Of a stretch of 64,000 nt of DNA, positions 1 to 12,573 are shown piece by piece (the first letter of the stretch is position 1; each line of letters starts with the position of its first letter). Source of the DNA: Hahella ganghwensis DSM 17046 (GTDB taxonomy: Bacteria; Pseudomonadota; Gammaproteobacteria; Pseudomonadales; Oleiphilaceae); assembly GCF_000376785.1 (NCBI RefSeq), contig NZ_AQXX01000142.1, positions 62,001 through 126,000 on the forward strand, read 5' to 3'. Made by a program: the position numbers and the translations under genes. The notes under the pieces are model-generated. The model had not been told where the DNA came from. It saw only the letters and a program-made list of their open reading frames with translations, and searched no databases.

Positions 1-2
1 AG

Positions 3-92
3 GAACTCTCAAGCAACAAAGCAGATCGTAAGACTTTGGCGAATCTTCTGGCCAGTATGGCGAATAACCTGACGGCTGACGAAATGGGTTAA
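3..92 (+). CDS. C-terminal end of an unidentified gene (partial)
   Basis: An open frame enters from the left edge and stops at TAA 90-92, giving 29 residues that end in LTADEMG. The tail is hydrophilic and helix-prone with no recognisable motif. The next gene starts two bases after the stop, so the two are very probably co-transcribed and translationally coupled. Function cannot be assigned from this fragment. It matters because it may be the third member of the OmpA/GTPase module that follows. Confidence 0.5.
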   Translation, partial: ELSSNKADRKTLANLLASMANNLTADEMG

Positions 93-94
93 TA

Positions 95-1864
95 GTGTCC
101 ACTTGCACTCCCCCTACATCCTCCGACAAGCCAAACAGCTCAAAGGAAGAGCTTCACCGTCTGCGGCAGTTGGTTCTGGGACCTGATTACGAACAGGCCC
201 TGAGCACAATGCTGTCTCAAAGCGATACGGAACGTATCGCCACAACCATTTCAGAAGCGATCATTCAGCGCAACCTTTCAGACAAGAGCGTGGCCCAGGC
301 TTTGGCACCAATCATTGACGATGCCATTGATAATGCCATCCGGCATCGCCCTCAGAGAATTACCCGAGTTATCTACCCGATTATTGGCCCCTCGATACGA
401 AAGTCTGTTGCCAGAGCCTTGGCAGACATGGTGCAGAACCTTAATCAGATTCTGGAAAGCAGTCTGAGCATCAGATCATGGGGATGGCGTTATCAGGCGT
501 GGCGGGCAGGCATGAAATACGGCGAATACGTCCTGCTGAAAACTCTCGATTTTCGCGTGGAACAGGTGCTGCTGATTCATCGGGAAACCGGTATTCTCCT
601 GCATGCGGAGAATGCGGCCGGATTTCAGGTCGAGGATCCCGAACTGGTCTCCTCCATGCTGACGGCTGTCAGTGATTTCATCTCTGATTCTTTCAGCCGC
701 CATCCAGACAGCTCTCTGGACAATATTCGGGTTGGTGATTTTATCCTGGAAATTGAAACCGGCCCTTCAGCCATTCTCGTAGCGGCTATAAGAGGAACTC
801 CGAGCAAGCAAGTCAGCCAAACCCTGAAAACAACTCTGGAACGTCTTCACCTGGTATTTTCCAGAGAGTTTGACCGATTCGACGGCGACCGCACCATTTT
901 TGCCTCCGCCGCTGACCTGATGCGCCCTTGCCTGCTGATAAAACACAAAGAACACACCAGACCCGGCATCCCCTGGCGGGCGTTGACCATGCTTGCATTT
1001 TTCATTGGATACGGTTTCTGGGCAGGATATCTGAAGGTTCAGAATGAAATCATGTACCTACATATCCTGGATGCACTACAGACCTCCCCGGGTTATGTGG
1101 TCGTCGGCGAAAGCAGGAACATGCCCCGGCTCAATATTGAAGTATTGCGGGCGCCCACTTCGGAACCATCGAGAGAAATATTGAATCGACTCGACACTGG
1201 CAATTGGGATGTCGCGGTAACAGAGCATATTGCCCCTCTGGATATGCAGGAATATCTACTACCCATGATTCCCAGCATGTTTCATCTTGGCCGGGATACC
1301 AATTTCACCCGTGACGGACAGGCGCTAGTGGTTACAGGCTCACTGAAAGAAACTCAGCGCAACAACCTGGAACAGAACCCTCTTTTGAAATCGGTTTATT
1401 CCCATATCGATTTTTCCTCAGTTGAGGTTTACGCGGACCAGACACCGGAAGAGCAGCAGAAAAACGAGTGGCGACAACTCAAGGCAACCATTGAAAATAT
1501 ACGCTTCCAGTTCCAACCTAATACCGCCGAACTGGTCTCCGGAGAGGAGCAAAAGATACCAGCATTGGTCGCCAATATTGAAAGCATTCGCTCTCTGGCC
1601 GAAAAAATTCCGGTTTATCACTGGCAACTGTACATCGTAGGACATGCCAATAGCGCCGGAACGGATACTGCCAACTTGAGAATCAGTGAAGAACGGGCCA
1701 AACTGATCAATGAGTTATTGATAACCAACCATCTGGACGCCGAACTGCTATTGGCCTGGGGGGCTGGCAATCTGCCGAACAGCCGGCTGCCAGAGCATCA
1801 ACAGCGTATGGTTTCCCTGCAACTGATCCACTCACCTTTCATACCGGGAACGGAGTACCCATGA
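95..1864 (+). CDS. Inner-membrane protein with roadblock-like cytoplasmic region and C-terminal OmpA-like domain
   Basis: The protein has 589 residues and starts with GTG. Residues 1-150 are helical and polar. Residues about 153-262 (starting FRVEQVLLIHRETG) resemble a roadblock/longin-type alpha-beta fold; this is inference from pattern only. One strong membrane segment lies at about 294-312 (TMLAFFIGYGFWAGYL). The C-terminus (about 469-585) has the OmpA-like peptidoglycan-binding pattern, with GHANSAG and the RISEERA helix. The expected topology is cytoplasmic N-terminus and periplasmic C-terminus. The stop overlaps the start of the GTPase gene in an ATGA, so the two proteins are made together and probably interact. 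Similar OmpA-plus-GTPase pairs exist in other proteobacteria, with role unsettled. Confidence 0.75.
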   Translation: MSTCTPPTSSDKPNSSKEELHRLRQLVLGPDYEQALSTMLSQSDTERIATTISEAIIQRNLSDKSVAQALAPIIDDAIDNAIRHRPQRITRVIYPIIGPSIRKSVARALADMVQNLNQILESSLSIRSWGWRYQAWRAGMKYGEYVLLKTLDFRVEQVLLIHRETGILLHAENAAGFQVEDPELVSSMLTAVSDFISDSFSRHPDSSLDNIRVGDFILEIETGPSAILVAAIRGTPSKQVSQTLKTTLERLHLVFSREFDRFDGDRTIFASAADLMRPCLLIKHKEHTRPGIPWRALTMLAFFIGYGFWAGYLKVQNEIMYLHILDALQTSPGYVVVGESRNMPRLNIEVLRAPTSEPSREILNRLDTGNWDVAVTEHIAPLDMQEYLLPMIPSMFHLGRDTNFTRDGQALVVTGSLKETQRNNLEQNPLLKSVYSHIDFSSVEVYADQTPEEQQKNEWRQLKATIENIRFQFQPNTAELVSGEEQKIPALVANIESIRSLAEKIPVYHWQLYIVGHANSAGTDTANLRISEERAKLINELLITNHLDAELLLAWGAGNLPNSRLPEHQQRMVSLQLIHSPFIPGTEYP

Positions 1865-2361
1865 TCGCCAAGAAAATCTGCTTATTGGGCTCCTTCGCGG
1901 TTGGCAAAACCAGCCTGATCCGCCGCTATGTGGAAAGTATTTTCAGTGAGAAATACCACACAACAATTGGCGTCAAGATCGACAAAAAGATCGTCCACTG
2001 CCAAGGGCAGGATGTGCAACTGATGATCTGGGATATTGAAGGCAAGGATGAATTCAGCGTCTATCGGCAGAGTTACCTGCGCGGTGCTGCAGGCTACTTT
2101 CTGGTTGTGGACGGAACCCGCCCGGAAAGCGTTGAGGTGGCAAAAGAATGGCACACACTGGTTAATGAGCAGAGCCTGTCGCTTCCTTTCGTTCTGCTGG
2201 TAAACAAATCAGACCTGTTCTATGAACAAAGACTCAAGGAGGAAAACCTTGCCGAACTCACCACCATGGGCTGGGAGATCATCCTTACCAGCGCCAAAAC
2301 AGGTGACAATGTGGACAAAGCGTTTGAACGCTTGACAACACGGCTGCTTGAAAAGAGTTAA
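1861..2361 (+). CDS. Ras/Rab-like small GTPase
   Basis: This is a single G-domain protein of 166 residues. Visible motifs are the P-loop GSFAVGKTS (10-18), switch I HTTIG (33-37), DIEGKDE in switch II (58-64), NKSD (115-118) and TSAKT (143-147). The position equivalent to Ras Gln61 is Lys (GK instead of GQ), so intrinsic hydrolysis may be slow and depend on a partner. There is no C-terminal cysteine for lipidation, so membrane attachment would have to come from the partner protein. It overlaps the upstream OmpA-domain gene by 4 bases (ATGA). Prokaryotic Ras-like GTPases such as MglA work with roadblock proteins in polarity; a comparable role here is only a hypothesis. Confidence 0.85.
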   Translation: MIAKKICLLGSFAVGKTSLIRRYVESIFSEKYHTTIGVKIDKKIVHCQGQDVQLMIWDIEGKDEFSVYRQSYLRGAAGYFLVVDGTRPESVEVAKEWHTLVNEQSLSLPFVLLVNKSDLFYEQRLKEENLAELTTMGWEIILTSAKTGDNVDKAFERLTTRLLEKS

Positions 2362-2592: not shown

Positions 2593-4755
2593 ATGGATAG
2601 CCAGAATTTGTTGGAATCGTTACTGAGTGAACTGGATATTGCACTGTTTCAATGTGAATCTCCAGACGATGAATTACCGAACTTTCAACTCCTGAACGAA
2701 CCACCTTCGTGGACTTCCGTGTTTCAGGATATTGCCCGCAATCAACCTCTCGCCCTGACCGAAGTTTTCCCCTATCTGGAGGCCTTTCTTCCCGAAGCAC
2801 GTGAGTCGTGGACATCTACGAATAACAGCCGGGCCAACTCCGGGGTATGGACAGAAGTCGACGACGAAGGCAACAACCAACAGCTGGAAGCCCTTGCATT
2901 GCGCATTTCCGGCGCTCCTATTCTGGTACTGTTGAATCTCACCCGCAATTTCGACGAACGTCACCACCTTTATCAACGCGCTCGCGAAATAGCTCTGGCC
3001 AACGAAAAACTCATTGTTCAGCTAAATCATCGTCAACGGGAATTGCAGAATAGCCTGGAAAAACGCCTGCAGGATAATCAGGCATTGCGGGATATCGAAA
3101 ACAGTGTGCGCAATAATGCCTCCGCTGTACTTATCTGCAAACCTGACGGTGGTGTGGAAATCATGAATCAGGCTTTGATCGACATCTATCGGGTAAAGGC
3201 CCCAGAGGATACCAACGAATCTCTCCTTGATAAGTGGCTGAAAGAGGCTGAGAAAATCTATCCGGAGATTCACCGCATTGTAGCTTCAGGATCGTACTGG
3301 GAAGGTGAGTTTGAAAGCCATAACGAGTCTGGAGAATCGAGATGGATCAGACTGGCCATTGGCCCAGTATTGGATACCTCCCATAAACTGACCCATTATG
3401 TCTGCATCGCCAATGACATCAGCATGCTGAAGAAAAGCAGTGCCGAAATTGAAAAGCTGGCTGACTACGACTTCACCACACACCTTCCCAATCGTCGTCA
3501 TTTCTGGAAACAACTGACCCGCTGCCTGGACAAGGGGGCTCAAAAGAGTACCAGTCTGGCGCTGATCTATGTCGATCTCGATCATTTCAAACGAGTCAAT
3601 GACAGCCTTGGACACCACGCCGGTGACTTTCTGCTAAGCACCATCGGTACACGTCTGGCAAGATGCATTAAACGGGGAGACTTTATTGCGCATTTGGGTG
3701 GTGATGAGTTCGCTATTATTTTGGAGTTACCCTACCCCAACATCAATATTGAGAACATTGCACAGCGGGTTCAATCCGCCGTCAGCAAGAGCATTACAAT
3801 TGAAAACTCAACACTGAAGATGACCGCCAGTATCGGCATTGCGCTATATCCCCGCGATGGTCGCGACGCCACCTCGCTCATGCGACATGCCGACCTTGCC
3901 ATGTTTCATGCCAAGAAAATGGGCAGAGGAAAGTACCAGACCTTCACACCCAATATGAATTATGAATTCCTACAAATGCTGCAACTGGAAATCGATTTGC
4001 AGAAGGCAATAGAACAACAACAGTTCAATCTCGTTTATCAACCCCAGGTGTGTTCGGGACAGGATCACCACCTACGCCTGGAGGCATTGATCAGATGGCA
4101 ACACCCAGAAAAAGGCAGCATCTCCCCAGGGCGCTTTATTCCAATCGCAGAAGAAAACGGCATGATTCTGGATATCGGTTTATGGGTGTTGGAGCATGCA
4201 TGTAAGCAAGCGATAAATCTTCTCAACGAAGGCTTCAATGTCATCATGGCCGTTAACGTCTCCGCCAAACAAGTGCGCCAGGAGAATTTCAAAGACCTCG
4301 TCAAGACAGTACTCACCAAAACCAGCCTGCCTCCGCAACACCTCGAACTGGAAATCACCGAGACCACGGTCATGGAAGAAATGGACGTCGTGGTGGCCTT
4401 ACTGAAAGATCTGCGCAAACTGGGCGTCTCCATTTCACTGGACGATTTTGGATCCGGATTTTCCTCACTGACTTATCTTAAAAACCTGCCAGTAGACTAT
4501 CTGAAACTGGACCGCGCTTTTATCCACGAACTTCCCGCCAATGAAGAAAGTAAAGCAATTACCACGTCAGTCATAAACCTGGCCCATGAATTAAAAATCA
4601 AAGTGATAGCTGAAGGTGTAGAAAACCAGGATCAGGTAAACTTTCTTACTGAGAAAAAATGCGATTATATGCAGGGTTTTTTATTTTATTACCCAATGGA
4701 AATTGAAAAGATACGGGATATATTTACAGCCATCAGAGGCGCTGCCAATCACTGA
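2593..4755 (+). CDS. PAS-GGDEF-EAL c-di-GMP synthase/phosphodiesterase
   Basis: This is a cytoplasmic signalling protein of 720 residues. Residues 1-130 are an unassigned input region, followed by a short coiled coil (130-170), a PAS domain (about 168-280), a GGDEF domain with intact GGDEF at 369-373, and an EAL domain from about 463 with EAL at 497-499, NVSAKQ, DDFGSG and IAEGVE. Both catalytic signatures are complete, so it could make or break c-di-GMP. The inhibitory RxxD site reads KRGD, so feedback control may be weakened. A good ribosome site (AGGAGG, 2579-2584) lies 8 bases before ATG. No transmembrane segment is seen. It lies next to the flagellar block, where FleQ is a c-di-GMP receptor. 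Confidence 0.9.
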   Translation: MDSQNLLESLLSELDIALFQCESPDDELPNFQLLNEPPSWTSVFQDIARNQPLALTEVFPYLEAFLPEARESWTSTNNSRANSGVWTEVDDEGNNQQLEALALRISGAPILVLLNLTRNFDERHHLYQRAREIALANEKLIVQLNHRQRELQNSLEKRLQDNQALRDIENSVRNNASAVLICKPDGGVEIMNQALIDIYRVKAPEDTNESLLDKWLKEAEKIYPEIHRIVASGSYWEGEFESHNESGESRWIRLAIGPVLDTSHKLTHYVCIANDISMLKKSSAEIEKLADYDFTTHLPNRRHFWKQLTRCLDKGAQKSTSLALIYVDLDHFKRVNDSLGHHAGDFLLSTIGTRLARCIKRGDFIAHLGGDEFAIILELPYPNINIENIAQRVQSAVSKSITIENSTLKMTASIGIALYPRDGRDATSLMRHADLAMFHAKKMGRGKYQTFTPNMNYEFLQMLQLEIDLQKAIEQQQFNLVYQPQVCSGQDHHLRLEALIRWQHPEKGSISPGRFIPIAEENGMILDIGLWVLEHACKQAINLLNEGFNVIMAVNVSAKQVRQENFKDLVKTVLTKTSLPPQHLELEITETTVMEEMDVVVALLKDLRKLGVSISLDDFGSGFSSLTYLKNLPVDYLKLDRAFIHELPANEESKAITTSVINLAHELKIKVIAEGVENQDQVNFLTEKKCDYMQGFLFYYPMEIEKIRDIFTAIRGAANH

Positions 4756-4990: not shown

Positions 4991-6004
4991 ATGGCCAAAA
5001 AAGAAAAAGGCGTATTAAAAAAGAATGTCAAAAAACTGAGCGACACACTCAGTAAAGAACTGCTGAAAGCCACCGATCAGGTACAGTCGGTTGTATCCGA
5101 TTTCTACAAACAGGCTGAAGACATTCAAAAGCAAATTAGAGAGCCAGTTGTAAAGCTCGTTAAAGACCTGGAAGATCTGCGCGAAAAAGAACTCAAGCGG
5201 GTACAGGACGAATACCAAAAGGTCGTCAAGGAAATCAATACTCTTCAGGAACAATTCCTGGATAAATTGGGCATTGCTCCCCCCAAAAACACTTCTGCCG
5301 GCACAGCCAAGAAAACCACTCGCAAATCGACCACAACTCGTGGCAGCACCACAACGGCTAAGAAGACCGGGACCACCACCAGAAAAACGGCAACAACCGC
5401 CAAGAAAACATCAACTGCTGCCAAGAAAACCGGCACAACTGCAAAGACCGCAGGCACCACCGCAAAGAAAACTGGCGCTGCTGCGGCAAAGAAAACCAGT
5501 ACTACTACGAAGAAAACAGGAACTGGCACTACTGCGAAAAAAACAGGGACCAGCACTGCCGCTAAGAAAACCGGCACCACGGCCAAGAAAGCAGGTACAA
5601 CGACCAGAAAAACGACAGGTGCGACCAAATCTGCCGCTTCAAAGACAACAGCAAGCAAGCCGGCAACGACCCGCAAAGCTCCTGCGAAGAAAACGACAGC
5701 AGCATCCAAGGCCAAAACCACTTCAGGCTCAGCCGCAAAAGCAGCCGGCCCCAAAACCGCAGCCACCAAGGCAGCAACTACCCGTAAGCCTGCAGCAAAA
5801 ACTACTACGGCCAAGAAACCTGCTACTGCCAGCAAATCCACAGCTACCACAACAACTGCAAAGACTGCTACCGCAGCAAAAAAACCAGCCCCCCGTCGCC
5901 GTACCGCAGCGAAAAAGACAGACACTCCAAGTACTGCGACACCTGCAGCGACTACTACTGAGACCTCTTCTGCCACCAGCAGCAGTGAGTCCACTTCGTC
6001 CTGA
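4991..6004 (+). CDS. Histone H1-like Lys/Thr/Ala-rich protein (AlgP/PhaF type)
   Basis: The protein has 337 residues. Residues 1-95 form a long amphipathic helix or coiled coil resembling a phasin/AlgP N-terminus, with many KEL and EIN heptads. After LGIAPP, residues 105 to about 310 are degenerate repeats built on TTAKKTG or KKTGTTA, strongly basic, like eukaryotic H1 tails and the C-termini of Pseudomonas AlgP and PhaF, which bind DNA non-specifically. The last 20 residues are Ser/Thr-rich and acidic. GGAG lies 7 bases before ATG. The repeat DNA invites slippage, so length probably varies between strains. Whether it is a nucleoid protein or a granule-associated phasin cannot be decided, since no PHA genes are nearby. 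Confidence 0.8.
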   Translation: MAKKEKGVLKKNVKKLSDTLSKELLKATDQVQSVVSDFYKQAEDIQKQIREPVVKLVKDLEDLREKELKRVQDEYQKVVKEINTLQEQFLDKLGIAPPKNTSAGTAKKTTRKSTTTRGSTTTAKKTGTTTRKTATTAKKTSTAAKKTGTTAKTAGTTAKKTGAAAAKKTSTTTKKTGTGTTAKKTGTSTAAKKTGTTAKKAGTTTRKTTGATKSAASKTTASKPATTRKAPAKKTTAASKAKTTSGSAAKAAGPKTAATKAATTRKPAAKTTTAKKPATASKSTATTTTAKTATAAKKPAPRRRTAAKKTDTPSTATPAATTTETSSATSSSESTSS

Positions 6005-6122: not shown

Positions 6123-6530
6123 CTATCGGTATCTTGCCTGACTGGACATTTGGCTGTTGTGCAGAACTTTGATTAAGTCCGCTTCTGCCCGGGACAACCC
6201 ACAGGTTGTCATGACATCATCAACATCAGCACCGAGAGAGAGCAGCCTTACGGCTTCGTTGTAAGAGACCTGTTGGACGTCATTCGACTCAAGTTCCTTT
6301 TGCTTTCTTTCCGCAGCTTTCATGCGCTTATCCAGAGCGACCACTTTGCGACCGACACCTTTGCCGCTGTCAGACACCATCAACAATTGCTCATCAAAAG
6401 TTTCCAATCTCTTTTCCAGATCCTGGATATAATGACGTTGCTGACGGATATACAACATTAAAGCTCCACCGACAGTAAAATTGGCGGCAAGCCCGACAAG
6501 TGTGACCCAGCCTGGGATGGACTCAAACAT
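6123..6530 (-). CDS. DUF2802 membrane-anchored protein
   Basis: This 135-residue protein has an N-terminal membrane segment (residues about 7-27), a coiled-coil stretch (30-80) and a C-terminal helical segment with NEAVRLLSLGADVDDVM and CGLSRAEADL, which looks like a small HTH-like fold. The pattern fits DUF2802, whose gene follows cheW at the end of chemotaxis operons in Pseudomonas and relatives. It starts 29 bases after the cheW stop and is the last gene of the operon, ending at the shared terminator. The biochemical role is unknown; its position suggests a link with the polar chemoreceptor array. Confidence 0.8.
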   Translation of the reverse strand: MFESIPGWVTLVGLAANFTVGGALMLYIRQQRHYIQDLEKRLETFDEQLLMVSDSGKGVGRKVVALDKRMKAAERKQKELESNDVQQVSYNEAVRLLSLGADVDDVMTTCGLSRAEADLIKVLHNSQMSSQARYR

Positions 6531-6559
6531 ATCCCCAACCTCTTATTAACTGACTTAAA

Positions 6560-7045
6560 TCAGATCGATGCCAGTTCCGACCATTCTTCTTCCGACATCA
6601 TTTTCTCAAATTCAACCAAAATGATGAGTTCACCATTTTTATTGCAAACACCTTGAATGAATTTGGCACTTTCCTCGTTGCCGACATTCGGTGCTGTTTC
6701 CATTTCTGATTGCCTCAGATAAACCACTTCAGCAACGGAATCCACAAGAATCCCGACGACCTGGTTATCCACTTCAATCACCACAATGCGGGTTTGATCC
6801 GTGACTTCCGACTCAGACAGCCCGAAACGTTTACGGGTGTCAATGACGGTTACAACATTGCCACGCAGATTGATAATTCCCAGCACGTAGTCCGGAGCCC
6901 CTGGAACCGGAGCAATCTCGGTGTACCGAAGTACTTCCTGAATCTGCATTACATTAATGCCGTAGGTTTCATGATCCAGCTGGAATGTCACGTACTGCAG
7001 AATAGGATCGTCAGAGCTTTGGCCTTGTCCGGTTTGGGATGCCAT
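6560..7045 (-). CDS. cheW: Chemotaxis coupling protein CheW
   Basis: CheW links CheA to chemoreceptors. The 161-residue product is a single CheW beta-barrel domain with the family signature VPGAPDYVLGIINLRG and the FIQGVC segment. The ATG at 7045 was chosen: AGAGG sits about 8 bases before it, and the protein then begins MASQTGQ as in Pseudomonas CheW. A longer frame back to 7144 would add 33 uncharacteristic residues. It follows parP after a 250-base spacer that could hold an extra promoter, although it is probably also read from the parC promoter. Confidence 0.93.
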   Translation of the reverse strand: MASQTGQGQSSDDPILQYVTFQLDHETYGINVMQIQEVLRYTEIAPVPGAPDYVLGIINLRGNVVTVIDTRKRFGLSESEVTDQTRIVVIEVDNQVVGILVDSVAEVVYLRQSEMETAPNVGNEESAKFIQGVCNKNGELIILVEFEKMMSEEEWSELASI

Positions 7046-7295
7046 ATCTATCAACCTCTTTTTAGCAAACCTGTGCGCTCGATATCGTGTCTCCAATACC
7101 CAAGGAAACCGCCTATCCGGGCAATCTCTTCTGGCATCAGACAATTAGCGTCAATTATTTAACACTTCTAATTATCTAATATAGAACAACGCAGGATCTA
7201 TGCCAGCCTAATTGAAGTGAAATTAACAACAGCGGGAAAGGAAGATGTCTTGGTGAATCCCTTCCAGATGAGCTCAAAGTCCCTTATCCTGATGC

Positions 7296-8555
7296 TCAAT
7301 TTTCTGATGAAGAATGAGCATCGCCAAGTAGCTTCTCAAATCCTGCGACATCAATCAAGGCACACATGTGGGTAACAACAGTTCCAGCCAGCCAAGGACG
7401 CCTGGAGCGCTCAGTACGCCACTTCACCTGCTCAGGGTCAAGAGTAAAGGCTTCAGCAACGGTATCACAGCCAATCCCCCACTCGGAATCCTGCAGTCTG
7501 ACAATATATTTCAACTGCTCAAGCCACTTCTCCGAATACCGTTCAGGCATCACCCAAAGCGCTGTGTCAACCACGTTCAGATTCAGGTCTCCGTGAGGAA
7601 ACAGACCCAGAAACCACTTGGGCATTCCAAATAGCGGAGTCAGTTCGCGATCCAGCGCATACACACCACCCAAAGACACCAAAGGAACGGCCAACTTCAA
7701 CCCGGCCACATGAAACAGGAGACACTCAAACCTTTCCTGGGCCCAGGATGGCCTTTCATTCGGCCAGGCTCCGTCAGGCGTTCCATTATCCAGCGAAGCG
7801 TCCTCTGCAACCTCCTGCTCCTGCACCACCACTTCTTCAACAACCTTTTGACGCTCGATGTCGACTTTGGCCTGCGGTACGTCAATTTTATGACGGGACG
7901 CAATATCAGGGGACTCTTGTTTCGCTTCCTCAACTTGTTTCGGTTCAGCTTTGACCTCTGTTTTAGCTTTCGCTATGCCTTCCTTCAGAGAATCTTGCGT
8001 TTTGACAGCCTGCCTGGCCACTGTTTCTGTAGCCGTTTTCAGCGCAGCGCTTTTCGTGGAAACCGGTGCAGGCTTCGCCTCTTCAACTGCTGACTGAATC
8101 TTGAATTTCGGTTTAAAGCTGAGCTTAGGAGGTTCCAGCTCCTGCAACGGTCGCCTCTTCTCAACCCGAGCATCCTCTCGGTGAGCCAACCAATCCTCCC
8201 TGGCTCTTTTTAAAATCGAATCAGCATGGTCAGCAGGCTCCTCACTTTTTCGGCGTCCCGTCATGGCGGATCCAAAAGAAGGCTTCCGATCAGACAAAGA
8301 GAACTCTGGTTTGGCTGCCGGCTTGCTTAAGGGCTTTGCTGCTGATCCAGGACCTGCCCCGGATTCAGGGGACGATTTTGGCTCAGGAACGAACTCAGGC
8401 GCTTTTGCCTCAGCTTTGACCTTCTCTCGGGGAGGTGCACCCTGCTCACGCGCCTCTTCATCAACCTGCAGAGGGACTGGTCGCAGTAAATCCGACAGGT
8501 AATCCATGATTGCCTGATCGGATTCATTAGGGTCTGCAAAACGTTTATCAGACAT
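7296..8555 (-). CDS. parP: ParP-like CheW-domain polar array protein
   Basis: The 419-residue product has a long low-complexity N-terminal half rich in Lys, Glu, Ala and Pro (to about residue 255), then a C-terminal CheW-like domain (about 275-410) carrying FECLLFHVAGLKLAVPL and GIGCDTVAEAF. In Vibrio, ParP has the same layout, is encoded beside the ParA-like ParC, and binds CheA and ParC to hold arrays at the pole. The start chosen (8555, MSDKRF) falls 22 bases after parC; upstream in-frame starts would lie inside parC. Its disordered linker diverges fast, so the name rests on architecture and neighbourhood. Confidence 0.8.
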   Translation of the reverse strand: MSDKRFADPNESDQAIMDYLSDLLRPVPLQVDEEAREQGAPPREKVKAEAKAPEFVPEPKSSPESGAGPGSAAKPLSKPAAKPEFSLSDRKPSFGSAMTGRRKSEEPADHADSILKRAREDWLAHREDARVEKRRPLQELEPPKLSFKPKFKIQSAVEEAKPAPVSTKSAALKTATETVARQAVKTQDSLKEGIAKAKTEVKAEPKQVEEAKQESPDIASRHKIDVPQAKVDIERQKVVEEVVVQEQEVAEDASLDNGTPDGAWPNERPSWAQERFECLLFHVAGLKLAVPLVSLGGVYALDRELTPLFGMPKWFLGLFPHGDLNLNVVDTALWVMPERYSEKWLEQLKYIVRLQDSEWGIGCDTVAEAFTLDPEQVKWRTERSRRPWLAGTVVTHMCALIDVAGFEKLLGDAHSSSEN

Positions 8556-8577
8556 GAAATCTCGCCATCCGGACCAG

Positions 8578-9393
8578 TCATGCCTGTGAGGTAGACGGTT
8601 CCCTTGTACCGGAACTGACACCAACATTCGCGTCGATGAGATCCTCCAACAACTTTCGATACCCTCTGACTCCATGAGTCATTGGATCAAAAGCCGAAGG
8701 AATCAGGCCGGCTTTACTGGCATCCCGAAATTTAGTATCGATAGGGATCGCGTAACGCCACACCTCATCAGCGTATTGTTTGCGAAGCGTTCTGAAAGTA
8801 TGCACAGATGCCTGTGTACGACGATCAAACATGGTGGGAATAATAGTGTAAGTCAATTGACTGCCTTGACTCTTCATTACCATCCCAAGAGTATGCAGCA
8901 TTCTCTCCAGCCCCTTAAGCGCGAGAAACTCTGTCTGCACAGGAATCAATATGTGCTGACTGGCAGCCAGGGAGTTGATCAGCAACACGCCTAGCACCGG
9001 CGTGTTGTCCAGAAACGCGTAATCAAATTCATCCCATAGATGGGCGAGCGCCTTTGAAATAATCAGCCCCATACCTTCCACGCCGACCATCTTCCGCTCC
9101 AATGTTGCCTGAGCCGTAGAAGCCGGAATCATTTTCAGATTGGGATGTGTGGTATCCTGAATTAACTGTCTTGGCAGATCGGCCGGAACTTTGCCATTGT
9201 GCATGAACAAATCGTAGACGCTACCGCGTTGAGTATCCGGATCAAAGCCAAAATAAGAAGACAAAGAGCCATGCGGATCCAGATCCAGCATCAGCACACG
9301 CTTGCCCTGCTCTGCCAGCAATCCCGCCAATGATACCGTGGTCGTGGTTTTACCCACACCACCTTTCTGGTTTGCAACTGTCCAAATACGCAC
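8578..9393 (-). CDS. parC: ParA/MinD-family ATPase ParC (polar positioning of chemotaxis arrays)
   Basis: This 271-residue protein has a deviant Walker A (KGGVGKTT, residues about 10-17), LDLDPHGSL with the A' aspartate, and FDYAFLDNTP as Walker B. ParA-type ATPases dimerise on ATP binding and move cargo; ParC of Vibrio recruits chemotaxis proteins to the old pole. The neighbouring ParP gene and che genes support this assignment over plasmid or chromosome partition, and no ParB is encoded nearby. It starts with GTG behind GGGGGA. A sigma-28 promoter lies about 350 bases upstream. Confidence 0.88.
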   Translation of the reverse strand: MRIWTVANQKGGVGKTTTTVSLAGLLAEQGKRVLMLDLDPHGSLSSYFGFDPDTQRGSVYDLFMHNGKVPADLPRQLIQDTTHPNLKMIPASTAQATLERKMVGVEGMGLIISKALAHLWDEFDYAFLDNTPVLGVLLINSLAASQHILIPVQTEFLALKGLERMLHTLGMVMKSQGSQLTYTIIPTMFDRRTQASVHTFRTLRKQYADEVWRYAIPIDTKFRDASKAGLIPSAFDPMTHGVRGYRKLLEDLIDANVGVSSGTREPSTSQA

Positions 9394-9825
9394 CAGGGAT
9401 ATCCCCCAAACTTAGTGATGTCGACTCAACTGGTAACGATCAGCGATTCGCAACCGCTATCGTCCTGCTTTGTTCCCTTTCCGATTCATTGTTCCCTGTC
9501 TGCACTTCATGCCATCGCCGCATGCATTGCCATATGTATCGTTCCAAGGCTGTAGGTTAAATTTCAGCGCCGTGCATTTAATTATAGTGCCAGCCACACT
9601 TTCACGCTTCCCCGGTTTTGATTCCCACAGCGGCAATAAGCTTCCGGTTTACGGACAAAATATTGTCTTATTCGCTCAAAATTCGTGTTAAATGTTGGCT
9701 GAAGTGAATACAGCAGAATGCGTGCCACCTGCTGTAGATGTTTATAATTATCGGCAGATAGCGGAAAGACTTTAGACCCAGTTGACCTTATCAGCAGCTT
9801 TGAACGATGAAGTAAAACACCTCCG
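9394..9825. other. Long spacer between motD and parC
   Basis: These 432 bases hold a sigma-28 promoter (9748-9774, minus strand) about 355 bases before the parC start codon. No convincing coding frame or terminator was seen in the roughly 345-nt leader, which is unusually long and could be a regulated 5' untranslated region or give rise to a small RNA. Confidence 0.5.
9748..9774 (-). promoter_or_regulatory. Sigma-28 (FliA) promoter of parC-parP-cheW
   Basis: On the minus strand the bases read TAAAGTCT-N11-GCCGATAA, against the enterobacterial consensus TAAAGTTT-N11-GCCGATAA. The -10 is perfect (9748-9755), the spacing is exactly 11, and the -35 (9767-9774) has one mismatch. FliA is encoded in this same cluster, so late-class control of parC, parP and cheW follows naturally. 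Confidence 0.85.
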
Positions 9826-10608
9826 CTACTTGCGCACGGTCAAGCGAACTCTTTCATCTTTGGCAATTAACAGGACCACTCGGCGATTACGCTGGCGCCC
9901 CTCAGAAGTATCGTTGCGGGCAAGAGGCTGAAATTCGCCATAGCCGACGGCCGCCATGCGTTTCGGGTCCACACCACCAAAGGCCAGCAACCTTACGACA
10001 GCCGATGATCTGGCCGCAGACAACTCCCAGTTGGAAGGATAAACCGGACTCCGGATCGGTACATTGTCTGTAAACCCTTCCACAAGAATGGCATTGGGGT
10101 AGTCTCTAAGTATTTCGGCAATGGTGTCGAGCAGCGGGAAAGCCGCATCCACCGGCACCGCATCACCACTGCTAAACAAGAGATTATTGCGCAAAGAAAG
10201 CTCAATCCAGTCGTCATTCGCATTCACAGACACCAGACCGTCACTGATCAACTTTTTAAGACTGGTGCTGAAGCGGTCGGCAATTTGCCTCATGGTCCCT
10301 TCCACATCAGCATTCCCGGTTCCCCCAACAGGCTTTCTGTCAGGATTTTCAAAAGGCTGCACAATAGGAGAGTCACTCTTTGGAGGGGACGAGGATTGTT
10401 GTCCGACCTGTATTGGCGTCAGGCTTTTTTGTGTCGCATTGAATACCCCCTCCAGAGTTTCAGAAAGCACTTTGTACTTCCCTTCATTCACAGAGGATAC
10501 GGAATACATCACCACGAAAAAGGCGAACAGGAGCGTTATGAAATCCGCGTAGGACACCAACCAGCGTTCATTGTTGTGAGATTCTTCTTCACGACGCCTA
10601 CGTCTCAT
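9826..10608 (-). CDS. motD: Flagellar stator protein MotD (MotB family)
   Basis: The product (260 residues) forms the peptidoglycan-anchored half of the stator. After a very basic start, one membrane segment (about 17-40) carries the ion-binding Asp in WLVSYADFITLLFAFF. A Gly/Pro-rich linker leads to an OmpA-like domain (about 125-250) with VEGFTDNVPI and NWELSAARSSAV. Its partner motC lies 46 bases upstream. Pseudomonads carry a second stator (MotAB) elsewhere; the MotC/MotD names follow this che-cluster location. Confidence 0.92.
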   Translation of the reverse strand: MRRRRREEESHNNERWLVSYADFITLLFAFFVVMYSVSSVNEGKYKVLSETLEGVFNATQKSLTPIQVGQQSSSPPKSDSPIVQPFENPDRKPVGGTGNADVEGTMRQIADRFSTSLKKLISDGLVSVNANDDWIELSLRNNLLFSSGDAVPVDAAFPLLDTIAEILRDYPNAILVEGFTDNVPIRSPVYPSNWELSAARSSAVVRLLAFGGVDPKRMAAVGYGEFQPLARNDTSEGRQRNRRVVLLIAKDERVRLTVRK

Positions 10609-10654
10609 GATTGGCCACCTCGATCATCCCAGGGCCTGCGGGGAAAAGCGCGCA

Positions 10655-11398
10655 TCAGGAATCAACAAAGCCTTTGAGCTTCAACTCAATCGCTTTGGGA
10701 TTCTCCCCTTCCGCGATCGCCACAACGCCTTCGATCATCATTTCACGAAACAGGGATTGCTCGTGAACAATACCCTTGAGCTTATTGGCGATAGGGAAAT
10801 AAAACAAGTTTGCCAGAGCAACGCCGTAGATTGTTGCAACAAAAGCTGTCGCGATTCCGGGCCCGAGCATGGAAGGGTCTTCCAGGTGACGCATCACCTG
10901 AATCAATCCCAGCACCGCACCGAGAATACCCAGCGTTGGCGCATACCCGCCCATGGCCTCATAAACTTTGGTACTGTTCAGTTCACGCTGCTCACGACTT
11001 CCCAGCTCCAACTCCATCACATTTCGGATAGACTCTGGCTCGGCGCCGTCCACCAGTAACTGCAAACCTTTCTGAGAAAACGGGTCCATTTCATTCTCGG
11101 CCACTTCCTCAAGACCGAGCAACCCTTCCTTTCTCGCCACCATACTCCAGCCAACGATCTTTTCGATACCTGCCTGGAAGTTAATATAAGGAGGTAAGAA
11201 CACCCACCCGAACTGAATAAGCGAGCGTTTTAGAACCGCACCGGAGTGCTGCAGGATAATCGCACCGACGGTGCCACCCAACACAATCAGGGCCGCCGGA
11301 AGATTCAACAGAGCGGAGACTTCCCCACCCTCAATAAGGTTACCACCGATAATAGCGACGAAGGCGATGATAACGCCTACAATACTAAGAATATCCAT
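10655..11398 (-). CDS. motC: Flagellar stator channel MotC (MotA family)
   Basis: This 247-residue MotA-type protein has four membrane segments (about 1-22, 27-48, 147-170, 182-203) and the cytoplasmic loop between segments 2 and 3 with the torque-generating charged patch. The family stretch EAMGGYAPTLGILGAVLGLI opens segment 3. It ends YDDFVDS-like with KGFVDS. It begins 5 bases after the cheB stop, indicating co-transcription, and works with MotD as the ion channel of the motor. Confidence 0.92.
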   Translation of the reverse strand: MDILSIVGVIIAFVAIIGGNLIEGGEVSALLNLPAALIVLGGTVGAIILQHSGAVLKRSLIQFGWVFLPPYINFQAGIEKIVGWSMVARKEGLLGLEEVAENEMDPFSQKGLQLLVDGAEPESIRNVMELELGSREQRELNSTKVYEAMGGYAPTLGILGAVLGLIQVMRHLEDPSMLGPGIATAFVATIYGVALANLFYFPIANKLKGIVHEQSLFREMMIEGVVAIAEGENPKAIELKLKGFVDS

Positions 11399-11403
11399 AG
11401 TCT

Positions 11404-12573
11404 TTAAGAGACGCTTTCCACCATCCGGCCCGCAAACTCATCCAGCGACAGAATATCATCTGCCAGCCCGGCCGTTGCCACCGCCATCGGCATCCCGTAT
11501 ATGACGCTGGTTTCCTCGTCCTGAGCCCACACCGTTGCCCCGGAGTCCTTCAGCATACGACACCCCTCACGCCCATCAGCTCCCATTCCGGTGAGAATAA
11601 TACCAAGCACCTTACCCGGAAAAGTTTTGGCGGCAGATCCAAATGTTACATCCACACAGGGCTTGTAATGCAATCTTTCATCGCCATCCAGAATTTTAAT
11701 CCTGGCAGAACCACCAGAGCGCTCAATCAGAGTCTGCTTACCTCCCGGGGCAATATAGGCCACACCAGGCTTAAGCACTTCACCGTTTTCCACCTGTTTC
11801 ACGCCGATGGCCGACAGACGATTCAGACGTTCCGCAAAGGCGGGAGTGAAGGTCGCAGGCATGTGTTGCACCAACACCAGAGGTTTCGGAAAATTGGCTG
11901 GCAACTGAGTTAAAATTTTCTGCAATGCCACAGGCCCCCCTGTAGAGGTACCGATCAATACAATACTGGCATTGACCTTTTCACCTTTGCGTGAAGGGGG
12001 TCTTTTGATCTCGGGCTTTGCCGGTGCAGCTGCTGGCGCACTCTTTTTAAGAGAAGCGGCCTGCGCTGTCGCTTTGGCAGCAGGAGAAGGCTTTACCGGC
12101 GTAATCCCCGGCCTGGAGGACCTCTCTGCGGGCTTGGGAGATACAGGTGCAGCGACTCCCCCGGAACGACCTTGTCGGCTACCTGATACAGCCATAATCC
12201 GGTCGTGCAATAATGCCTTGATCCTGGTCGCATCCCCTGACATAGCCTCAAAGCTTTTGGGCAGAAAATCCACCGCTCCGGCTTCAAGTGCATCAAAGGT
12301 TACCCGAGCCCCTTCGTAGGTGAGAGAGGAAAACATCAACACCGGAGTGGGATTTGTGCGCATGATTTCCTTAACGGCAGTAATTCCGTCCATCACCGGC
12401 ATTTCATAATCCATGGTGATGACATCTGGCTTCAACTTGGATACCAGATCAATTGCCTCTCTTCCGTTGGTGGCGGCGCCGACGACTTCAATGTCCGTCA
12501 TAGGTTGCAGGATCTCACTCAGGCGACGCCTGAAAAACCCGGAATCATCTACAATGAGGACCTTAACGGCCAT
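11404..12573 (-). CDS. cheB: Chemotaxis methylesterase/deamidase CheB
   Basis: CheB demethylates glutamyl residues of chemoreceptors. The 389-residue product has an N-terminal receiver (1-125) with phospho-acceptor D55 in ITMDYEMP, a long Ala/Pro/Lys linker (about 135-195) and the CheB esterase domain with catalytic Ser in IGTSTGGP, His in QHMPATF and Asp in GMGADG. The linker is longer than in enterobacterial CheB but typical of polar flagellates. It lies between cheA (167-base gap) and motC. No cheR is present in the window. Confidence 0.94.
   Translation of the reverse strand: MAVKVLIVDDSGFFRRRLSEILQPMTDIEVVGAATNGREAIDLVSKLKPDVITMDYEMPVMDGITAVKEIMRTNPTPVLMFSSLTYEGARVTFDALEAGAVDFLPKSFEAMSGDATRIKALLHDRIMAVSGSRQGRSGGVAAPVSPKPAERSSRPGITPVKPSPAAKATAQAASLKKSAPAAAPAKPEIKRPPSRKGEKVNASIVLIGTSTGGPVALQKILTQLPANFPKPLVLVQHMPATFTPAFAERLNRLSAIGVKQVENGEVLKPGVAYIAPGGKQTLIERSGGSARIKILDGDERLHYKPCVDVTFGSAAKTFPGKVLGIILTGMGADGREGCRMLKDSGATVWAQDEETSVIYGMPMAVATAGLADDILSLDEFAGRMVESVS

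Follow-up and report, generated by a model that had tools for sequence, protein, structure and literature searches.

The closest described relatives of the genes analysed here are the Rup GTPase systems, a family defined from genomes by Wuichet and Sogaard-Andersen in 2014 (PMC4316618). According to passages of that paper, a Group 1 Rup system comprises a predicted coiled-coil protein, a protein in which a domain is followed by a transmembrane (TM) helix and an OmpA domain, a Ras-type GTPase that lacks the Gln of its G3 motif, and an output protein with an invariant Gln in its N-terminal region. Diguanylate cyclase/phosphodiesterases and histidine kinases are named in its main text as the typical outputs. 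The same passages speculate that the output Gln acts in trans, replacing Gln61 of the GTPase, and report that Rup GTPases are not coupled to MglB and that, as of 2014, none of the Rup members had been characterised. Here we describe four genes of Hahella ganghwensis DSM 17046, at the left end of a stretch of 64,000 nucleotides that we call the window (contig NZ_AQXX01000142.1; G000:C142 62001-126000), which we lean towards assigning to Group 1 Rup on the basis of motifs and neighbourhood. Hahella receives no mention in the main text of the 2014 paper, and no experimental work on Rup systems since 2014 was found in the literature searched.

The actinobacterial conservons (CvnA-D, Mfp) resemble these genes in being four-gene GTPase systems with a signalling enzyme. 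A conservon GTPase-activating protein (GAP; MfpD) and a likely guanine nucleotide exchange factor (GEF; MfpC) are reported in passages of a 2026 paper (PMC13343842), which cites the 2014 paper and in which, by word search and in those passages, 'Rup' is absent. Conservons differ from the genes described here in that, according to passages of PMC4316618, CvnD is classed with MglA, their kinase is itself a membrane protein and no OmpA protein is among the four.

Our locus (L002, which starts left of the window) has counterparts of the four kinds of Group 1 Rup gene, with a long-helix gene as the candidate for the coiled-coil one. In window coordinates the features are:

1 to 92, plus strand: 3' end of the upstream long-helix gene, encoding 211 amino acids (aa); the full gene is L002 11457-12092, that is G000:C142 61457-62092
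95 to 1864, plus strand: OmpA-domain membrane protein, 589 aa from the GTG at 95
488 to 490, plus strand: its Arg132 codon, just 5' of the roadblock-like domain
542 to 889, plus strand: its cytoplasmic domain, weakly similar to Roadblock/LC7 and longin domains, residues 150-265
980 to 1033, plus strand: its probable single TM helix, about residues 296-313, from hydropathy
1511 to 1771, plus strand: its OmpA-like domain, residues 473-559, from Pfam
1861 to 2361, plus strand: small Ras-like GTPase, 166 aa from the ATG at 1861
2362 to 2592: gap of 231 nucleotides (nt) between the GTPase and output genes
2593 to 4755, plus strand: output protein, 720 aa, with PAS_9 at residues 178-277, GGDEF at 290-446 and EAL at 468-698 (Pfam)
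2974 to 2976, plus strand: its Gln128 codon

The original prediction, made from the sequence alone, had described an OmpA-domain protein and a small GTPase coupled by ATGA, and a third gene running over the left edge of the window with a gap of 2 bases. Both open reading frames (ORFs) are as it stated: the stop TGA of the OmpA-protein gene (1862-1864) and the start ATG of the GTPase gene (1861-1863) share the letters ATGA. The third gene is that of the 211-aa protein, whose stop is followed by 2 nt and then by GTG 95. Its proposal of an envelope-linked GTPase switch was right in outline and had already been published as the Group 1 Rup system, but the interval it covered misses the fourth gene at 2593-4755. 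The letters GGDEF and EAL can be read directly in the translation of that gene.

The order of the four genes is conserved. We fetched 52 loci, comprising our own, 3 plasmid records, 8 from relatives, 27 from a search of the class and 13 from a search of the phylum; they were chosen from matches to the OmpA protein, not at random, and include some close relatives (for example L025, L026 and L127). Homologues were identified by phmmer, while the output ORF was picked for its position and strand and had to encode at least 330 aa. The GTPase gene lies at most 150 nt 3' of the OmpA gene in 48 of the 52 loci, hence this pairing is not due to chance; the exceptions are L096, where the contig ends, L105, L107 and L126. 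A long-helix homologue stands directly 5' of the OmpA gene in 40 loci (phmmer detects none in the other 12), and an output ORF is found in 44 loci (none in L035, L115, L130 and L132 either), of which 33 have a GTPase-output gap of -4 to 20 nt. The original prediction had suggested such a survey of neighbouring genes. Among the neighbourhoods listed, the genes 3' of the output protein vary except between near relatives.

The OmpA protein itself is patchy within the genus, where 3 of 7 genomes have it. In the relatives set, 14 of 58 genomes match it at E<=1e-3 (9 over the cytoplasmic part, 5 only over the OmpA part or a broken stretch). At E<=1e-10, the class yields 30 genomes with the protein out of 369, and the phylum 50 out of 398. 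Seven records of a plasmid collection match it; in four (2 Rhizobium, 1 Mesorhizobium and 1 Nostoc) the match covers the cytoplasmic part. The GTPase (E<=1e-15) occurs in 48 of the 398 phylum genomes, and 46 of these also have the OmpA protein by hand count, where 6 would be expected if the two were independent, a comparison that kinship inflates. For two genomes whose loci lack an adjacent GTPase gene (G324 and G340), the GTPase is found on other contigs. In L126 (genome G453) the long-helix gene accompanies the OmpA-protein gene.

The GTPase belongs to the Ras family (Pfam E 2.2e-33) and carries the motifs G-x4-GKT (G1), DIEG, NKSD and SAK. G10, G15, K16, D58, G61, K116, D118, S144 and A145 are kept in all 48 aligned GTPases, and N115 in 46. 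The original prediction had noticed a Lys in place of Gln61 and the lack of a lipid anchor. The position holds K62 in our protein (window 2044-2046); across the family the residue after DxxG is E in 16, V in 5, A in 5, R in 4, K in 3 and others in the rest, and is never Gln (0/48). Our protein ends in ...LLEKS without a Cys, and only 1 of 48 GTPases has a Cys within its last six residues, so that there is no sign of a prenyl anchor. Searched against the PDB, the GTPase profile has small GTPases of the Rab kind as the best 60 of 624 matches, with Rab-23, Sec4 and Rab-35 on top. No second copy of the GTPase was found in our genome at E<=0.001.

The output proteins combine a constant head with varied catalytic ends. 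Pfam finds HisKA in 17 of the 44, HATPase_c in 17, GGDEF in 12, EAL in 12, a nucleotide cyclase domain in 8 and HD in 7; the four kinds of catalytic domain add up to 44, as totals for each type rather than as a listing for each protein. All are preceded by one N-terminal domain, as would fit a common domain for reading the GTPase. When the first 175 residues are aligned, Gln128 is identical in 44/44; leaving aside the start Met, L135 (37), A130 (34) and G84 (34) come next. We liken Gln128 to the invariant Gln of the 2014 paper by its description there. For residues 1-175, AlphaFold with three rows gave a model with a predicted local distance difference test (pLDDT) score of 82, in which a mixed alpha/beta part reaches residue 115 and a single helix spans 117-174, with Gln128 placed 11 residues into this long helix. 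Foldseek with this model returned 22 matches at E<=0.001, all of them PAS or LOV domains, and VIA gave a best Z of 8.4 over 110 residues with a root-mean-square deviation of 3.4 A. On this model, the best reading of the 'N-terminal region' in the 2014 paper is a PAS-like domain at residues 1-117, a point in which our description differs from that of Group 1 Rup. The nucleotide cyclase and HD-domain outputs also go beyond the types named as typical in the main text of the paper, whose supplement may list them.

What the sequences show is four genes in a conserved order, a GTPase without Gln61, an invariant output Gln and varied catalytic ends. Four of the features used to recognise Group 1 Rup are found here: Ras-type G1 to G5 motifs, no Gln after the DxxG of G3, a neighbour with a conserved domain, an inner-membrane helix and an OmpA domain, and an output protein with an invariant Gln in its N-terminal region. 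The kind of operon is thus already described; new are this member, the extra output types, the PAS-like model of the output head, the Gln counts and the weak support for a roadblock/longin domain. The counts agree with the 2014 proposal that the output Gln replaces Gln61, and go no further than agreement.

The OmpA protein consists of a cytoplasmic N-terminal part, the roadblock/longin-like domain, the TM helix, a periplasmic linker and the OmpA domain. The last of these has a Pfam E of 5.4e-6, at 27.1 bits against a cut-off of 27.2. OmpA-like domains bind peptidoglycan. L096, cut by the contig end, was dropped from the family alignment (A1). In 46 of 51 family members, a hydrophobic stretch above a hydropathy cut of 1.6 comes after the cytoplasmic domain; our own copy falls below the cut. 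Conservation is concentrated on the cytoplasmic side: the majority share is about 0.5 over residues 81-262 compared to about 0.3 in the periplasmic part, P95 and G234 are invariant in the 51 proteins, and R132 and G139 are found in 49/51. At E<=0.01, Pfam finds OmpA in 34 of the 51 relatives and BON in 2.

Residues 150-265, which the original prediction had called roadblock-like, gave weak signals for the roadblock and longin folds. We built a profile (A4) of residues 150-270 with 50 rows, L102 being dropped because of an insertion. Its best PDB match is the Roadblock/LC7 protein 9jue at E 0.033, followed by the longin BET5 (7ea3) at E 0.35; beyond that, starting at E 0.6, the matches are unrelated proteins. 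Widening the profile (A7, 45 rows) brought no gain (9jue E 0.04, BET5 E 0.26). By hhalign, A4 aligned locally with 28 bacterial Robl_LC7 domains (28 of 30 roadblock loci, the incomplete L135 and L145 being left out) with P of 0.0009 to 0.0024 and a probability of 12-23%. The score of 22.2 (P about 0.002) exceeds that of 200 column shuffles (mean 10.7, maximum 17.2) and of reversed profiles (11.2 and 14.2). Among 28 segments cut from the three family alignments, only two, both over the roadblock-like domain, reach the real score; the next best, at 16.8, holds the start of the domain, and the best one without the domain scores 16.2. As a control, the Robl_LC7 set scores 18.9 with the GTPase profile, hence the margin is small. 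Among the Pfam longin models, FUZ/MON1/HPS1 (E 0.055) and INTU/CCZ1/HPS4 (E 0.25) each match one member of the 50.

In the protein encoded upstream, a long stretch without Pro looks helical and has a strong period of 3.6. Its heptad period of 3.5 shows no excess over shuffles (505 of 1000 reach it), which makes 'long amphipathic helix' a safer description than 'coiled coil'. In 40 of 40 homologues, a 100-aa stretch has a period of 3.5/3.6 above 95% of its own shuffles. A C-terminal K-x-D-R-x-x-L-A motif is also conserved, with K188 in 37/40, R191 in 37/40 and L194 in 38/40.

Based on these features, we favour, with moderate confidence, a flow of signal from the envelope through the OmpA protein and the GTPase to the PAS-like output head and on to cyclic diguanosine monophosphate (c-di-GMP); the contacts, the direction of control and the stimulus are all ones that we infer. 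The OmpA protein would span the inner membrane and reach the cell wall via its OmpA domain, its roadblock/longin-like cytoplasmic domain would hold the GTPase, and it would probably set the nucleotide state of the GTPase (as a GEF or scaffold, perhaps as a GAP) in response to conditions in the envelope. For the long-helix protein, a role as scaffold is probable. Once loaded with GTP, the GTPase would bind the PAS-like head of the output together with the emerging helix, switching the catalytic end on or off. With a GGDEF-EAL end, the read-out in Hahella ganghwensis would be the level of c-di-GMP.

A number of observations speak against this flow or parts of it, beginning with the fact that every protein-protein contact in it is inferred. 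Not every member of the family may bind the wall, since Pfam at E<=0.01 detects no OmpA domain in 17 of the 51 OmpA-protein relatives. Of five genomes checked, G233 (L105) and G453 (L126) have the OmpA gene and no GTPase match at E<=1e-8; the GTPase may have been lost, be too divergent or fall in an assembly gap. Our own output gene starts 231 nt after the GTPase gene compared to at most 96 nt in 42/44 loci, which makes its co-transcription uncertain. For the output head, the TM-scores of the PAS/LOV matches relative to the query do not exceed 0.46 (the query length includes the long helix), Pfam finds no PAS match over residues 1-120, and the aligner's own note says that Z under 8 is common, next to the best Z of 8.4.

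The roadblock/longin assignment meets the largest share of such points and is below normal significance. Global hhalign of A4 with the Robl_LC7 domains gives P 0.005 and a probability of 3%, and none of the 50 family members has a match to Pfam Robl_LC7 (PF03259) at E up to 10 with HMMER filters on. Unrelated Pfam models score better in some members (Rpb1_7 E 0.0017, DUF2065 E 0.0088, and ILEI in 3 members, E 0.013). With the consensus of the cytoplasmic domain, the best matches in Pfam, the PDB and NCBIfam are PPDK_N, phosphonate-binding, endonuclease III and DNA glycosylase entries; the FUZ/MON1/HPS1 longin model follows at E 0.15 and no roadblock chain appears in the PDB, a result that we do not count as support. 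The structure prediction called for in the original prediction, run with AlphaFold on residues 15-300 and three rows (our own protein and those of L003 and L004), gave a pLDDT of 36, and the unused model argues neither for nor against the fold. Two scans of viral contigs for further alignment rows found no relatives. With the unrelated Pfam matches weighed in, we consider it rather likely, from profile comparison, that residues 150-265 belong to the Roadblock/longin superfamily. The original description of this domain is suggestive and has weak support from the 9jue match and the hhalign score, but none from Pfam Robl_LC7 or AlphaFold.

Mon1-Ccz1 is a longin/roadblock GEF of Rab GTPases. The genes described here resemble eukaryotic Rab GTPases with longin/roadblock GEFs (TRAPP) in the Rab-like PDB matches of the GTPase and the weak BET5 and FUZ/MON1/HPS1 matches of the domain. 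They differ in that the GTPases show no sign of a prenyl anchor and the similarity of the domain is weak, not an established homology. Roadblock/longin dimers serve mainly as GEFs, according to passages of PMC10933270.

How the signal is read and ended could also be seen differently. A possible though doubtful alternative is a split GAP, in which output Gln128, perhaps together with Arg132 of the OmpA protein, completes the Gln-less site of the GTPase, so that the receiver ends the signal. The conservation of both residues and the absence of Gln61 (44/44, 49/51 and 0/48) suit it, as does the proposal of its Gln part in passages of PMC4316618. Nevertheless, Gln128 in the modelled helix after the PAS-like domain may be invariant merely for passing the signal, and its place in the helix leading to the catalytic part would suit the passing on of a signal no less than catalysis in trans. 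It is rather unlikely, in our estimate, that the whole of a related scheme holds, with the effector carrying the catalytic Gln, its PAS-helix head both reading and switching off the Rab-like GTPase, and the wall-anchored roadblock/longin domain loading it. Control might run in reverse, with the output enzyme as a PAS sensor and the GTPase as the output, its targets being the OmpA protein and the envelope. Small-molecule sensing is common among PAS domains. For actinobacterial conservons, passages of PMC4316618 posit that the GTPase is the output. However, four catalytic types behind an invariant N-terminal Gln are more in line with a common receiver than with a common sensor, and we regard this direction as unlikely.

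The original prediction had proposed a possible polarity module, a wall-tethered GTPase switch acting on the polar flagellum or motility. In this reading the OmpA protein would be a wall-tethered, MglB-like GAP and the pair would place the polar flagellum. Flagellar and chemotaxis genes do lie nearby (two for CheW-domain proteins, one for a ParA-like ATPase, MotB, MotA and CheB, at 6560-12573), and the cytoplasmic domain has its weak roadblock similarity; as in MglA/MglB, a small Ras-like GTPase stands beside a possibly roadblock-like partner. However, the nearby genes are on the other strand, the genes 3' of the output differ between all but near relatives among the neighbourhoods listed, and the conserved fourth gene encodes a signalling enzyme. 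The partner is a 589-aa membrane protein without a Robl_LC7 match, and none was found in the whole of our genome at E<=0.001. G3 has the Ras-type Asp of DxxG without Gln (DIEGK in the window), not the TVPGQ or GTPGQ given for MglA in passages of PMC4316618, where Rup GTPases are also reported as uncoupled from MglB. The analogy with MglA/MglB overlooks these Rup-type motifs, and a role in flagellar placement is very unlikely. An anti-phage defence operon is hardly credible. Patchiness within the genus would suit it, but PADLOC at E<=0.01 has no match for the OmpA protein, the GTPase or the output. The long-helix protein weakly matches 19 varied PADLOC models (best ZorA, E 3.2e-5), as long helices do, and we rejected this candidate.

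The 231-nt gap at 2362-2592 may hold a promoter or an RNA; a scan for promoter-like sites found none within it. In and around the operon the scan gave 3 promoter-like sites compared to a shuffle mean of 2.7, which is no excess, and there are 7 terminator-like sites compared to 4.0 in shuffles (standard deviation 2.0). The gap is likewise long in L028 (237 nt). Beyond the output gene, window 4991-6004 encodes a protein of 337 aa whose N-terminus is helix-like and whose long tail is a Lys/Thr/Ala-rich repeat; it has no Pfam match and looks histone H1-like or phasin-like. L003 and L004 have shorter, similar ORFs 3' of the operon. On the minus strand, 6123-12573 is a chemotaxis and flagellar stator cluster, in which DUF2802 joins the genes named above. 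Left of the window, a gene for a 7TMR-DISM and GGDEF protein (L002 9314-11338) points away from the operon, with 118 nt between it and the first operon gene, and L003 has a similar ORF.

Our analysis makes two residues testable, Gln128 of the output protein and the missing Gln61 of the GTPase. Since one N-terminal domain precedes four output chemistries, one assay could serve all of them. The same head is common to c-di-GMP enzymes, histidine kinases, nucleotide cyclases and HD-domain enzymes, and would be their GTPase reader and off-switch if the effector carries the catalytic Gln. If the roadblock/longin assignment is true, it would tie the sensing of the envelope in bacteria to the components by which Rab GTPases are loaded in eukaryotes. 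And if the effector-carried Gln is true as well, these operons would encode a G-protein pathway from the envelope to a second messenger, assembled from the parts that also serve Rab/TRAPP control in eukaryotes.

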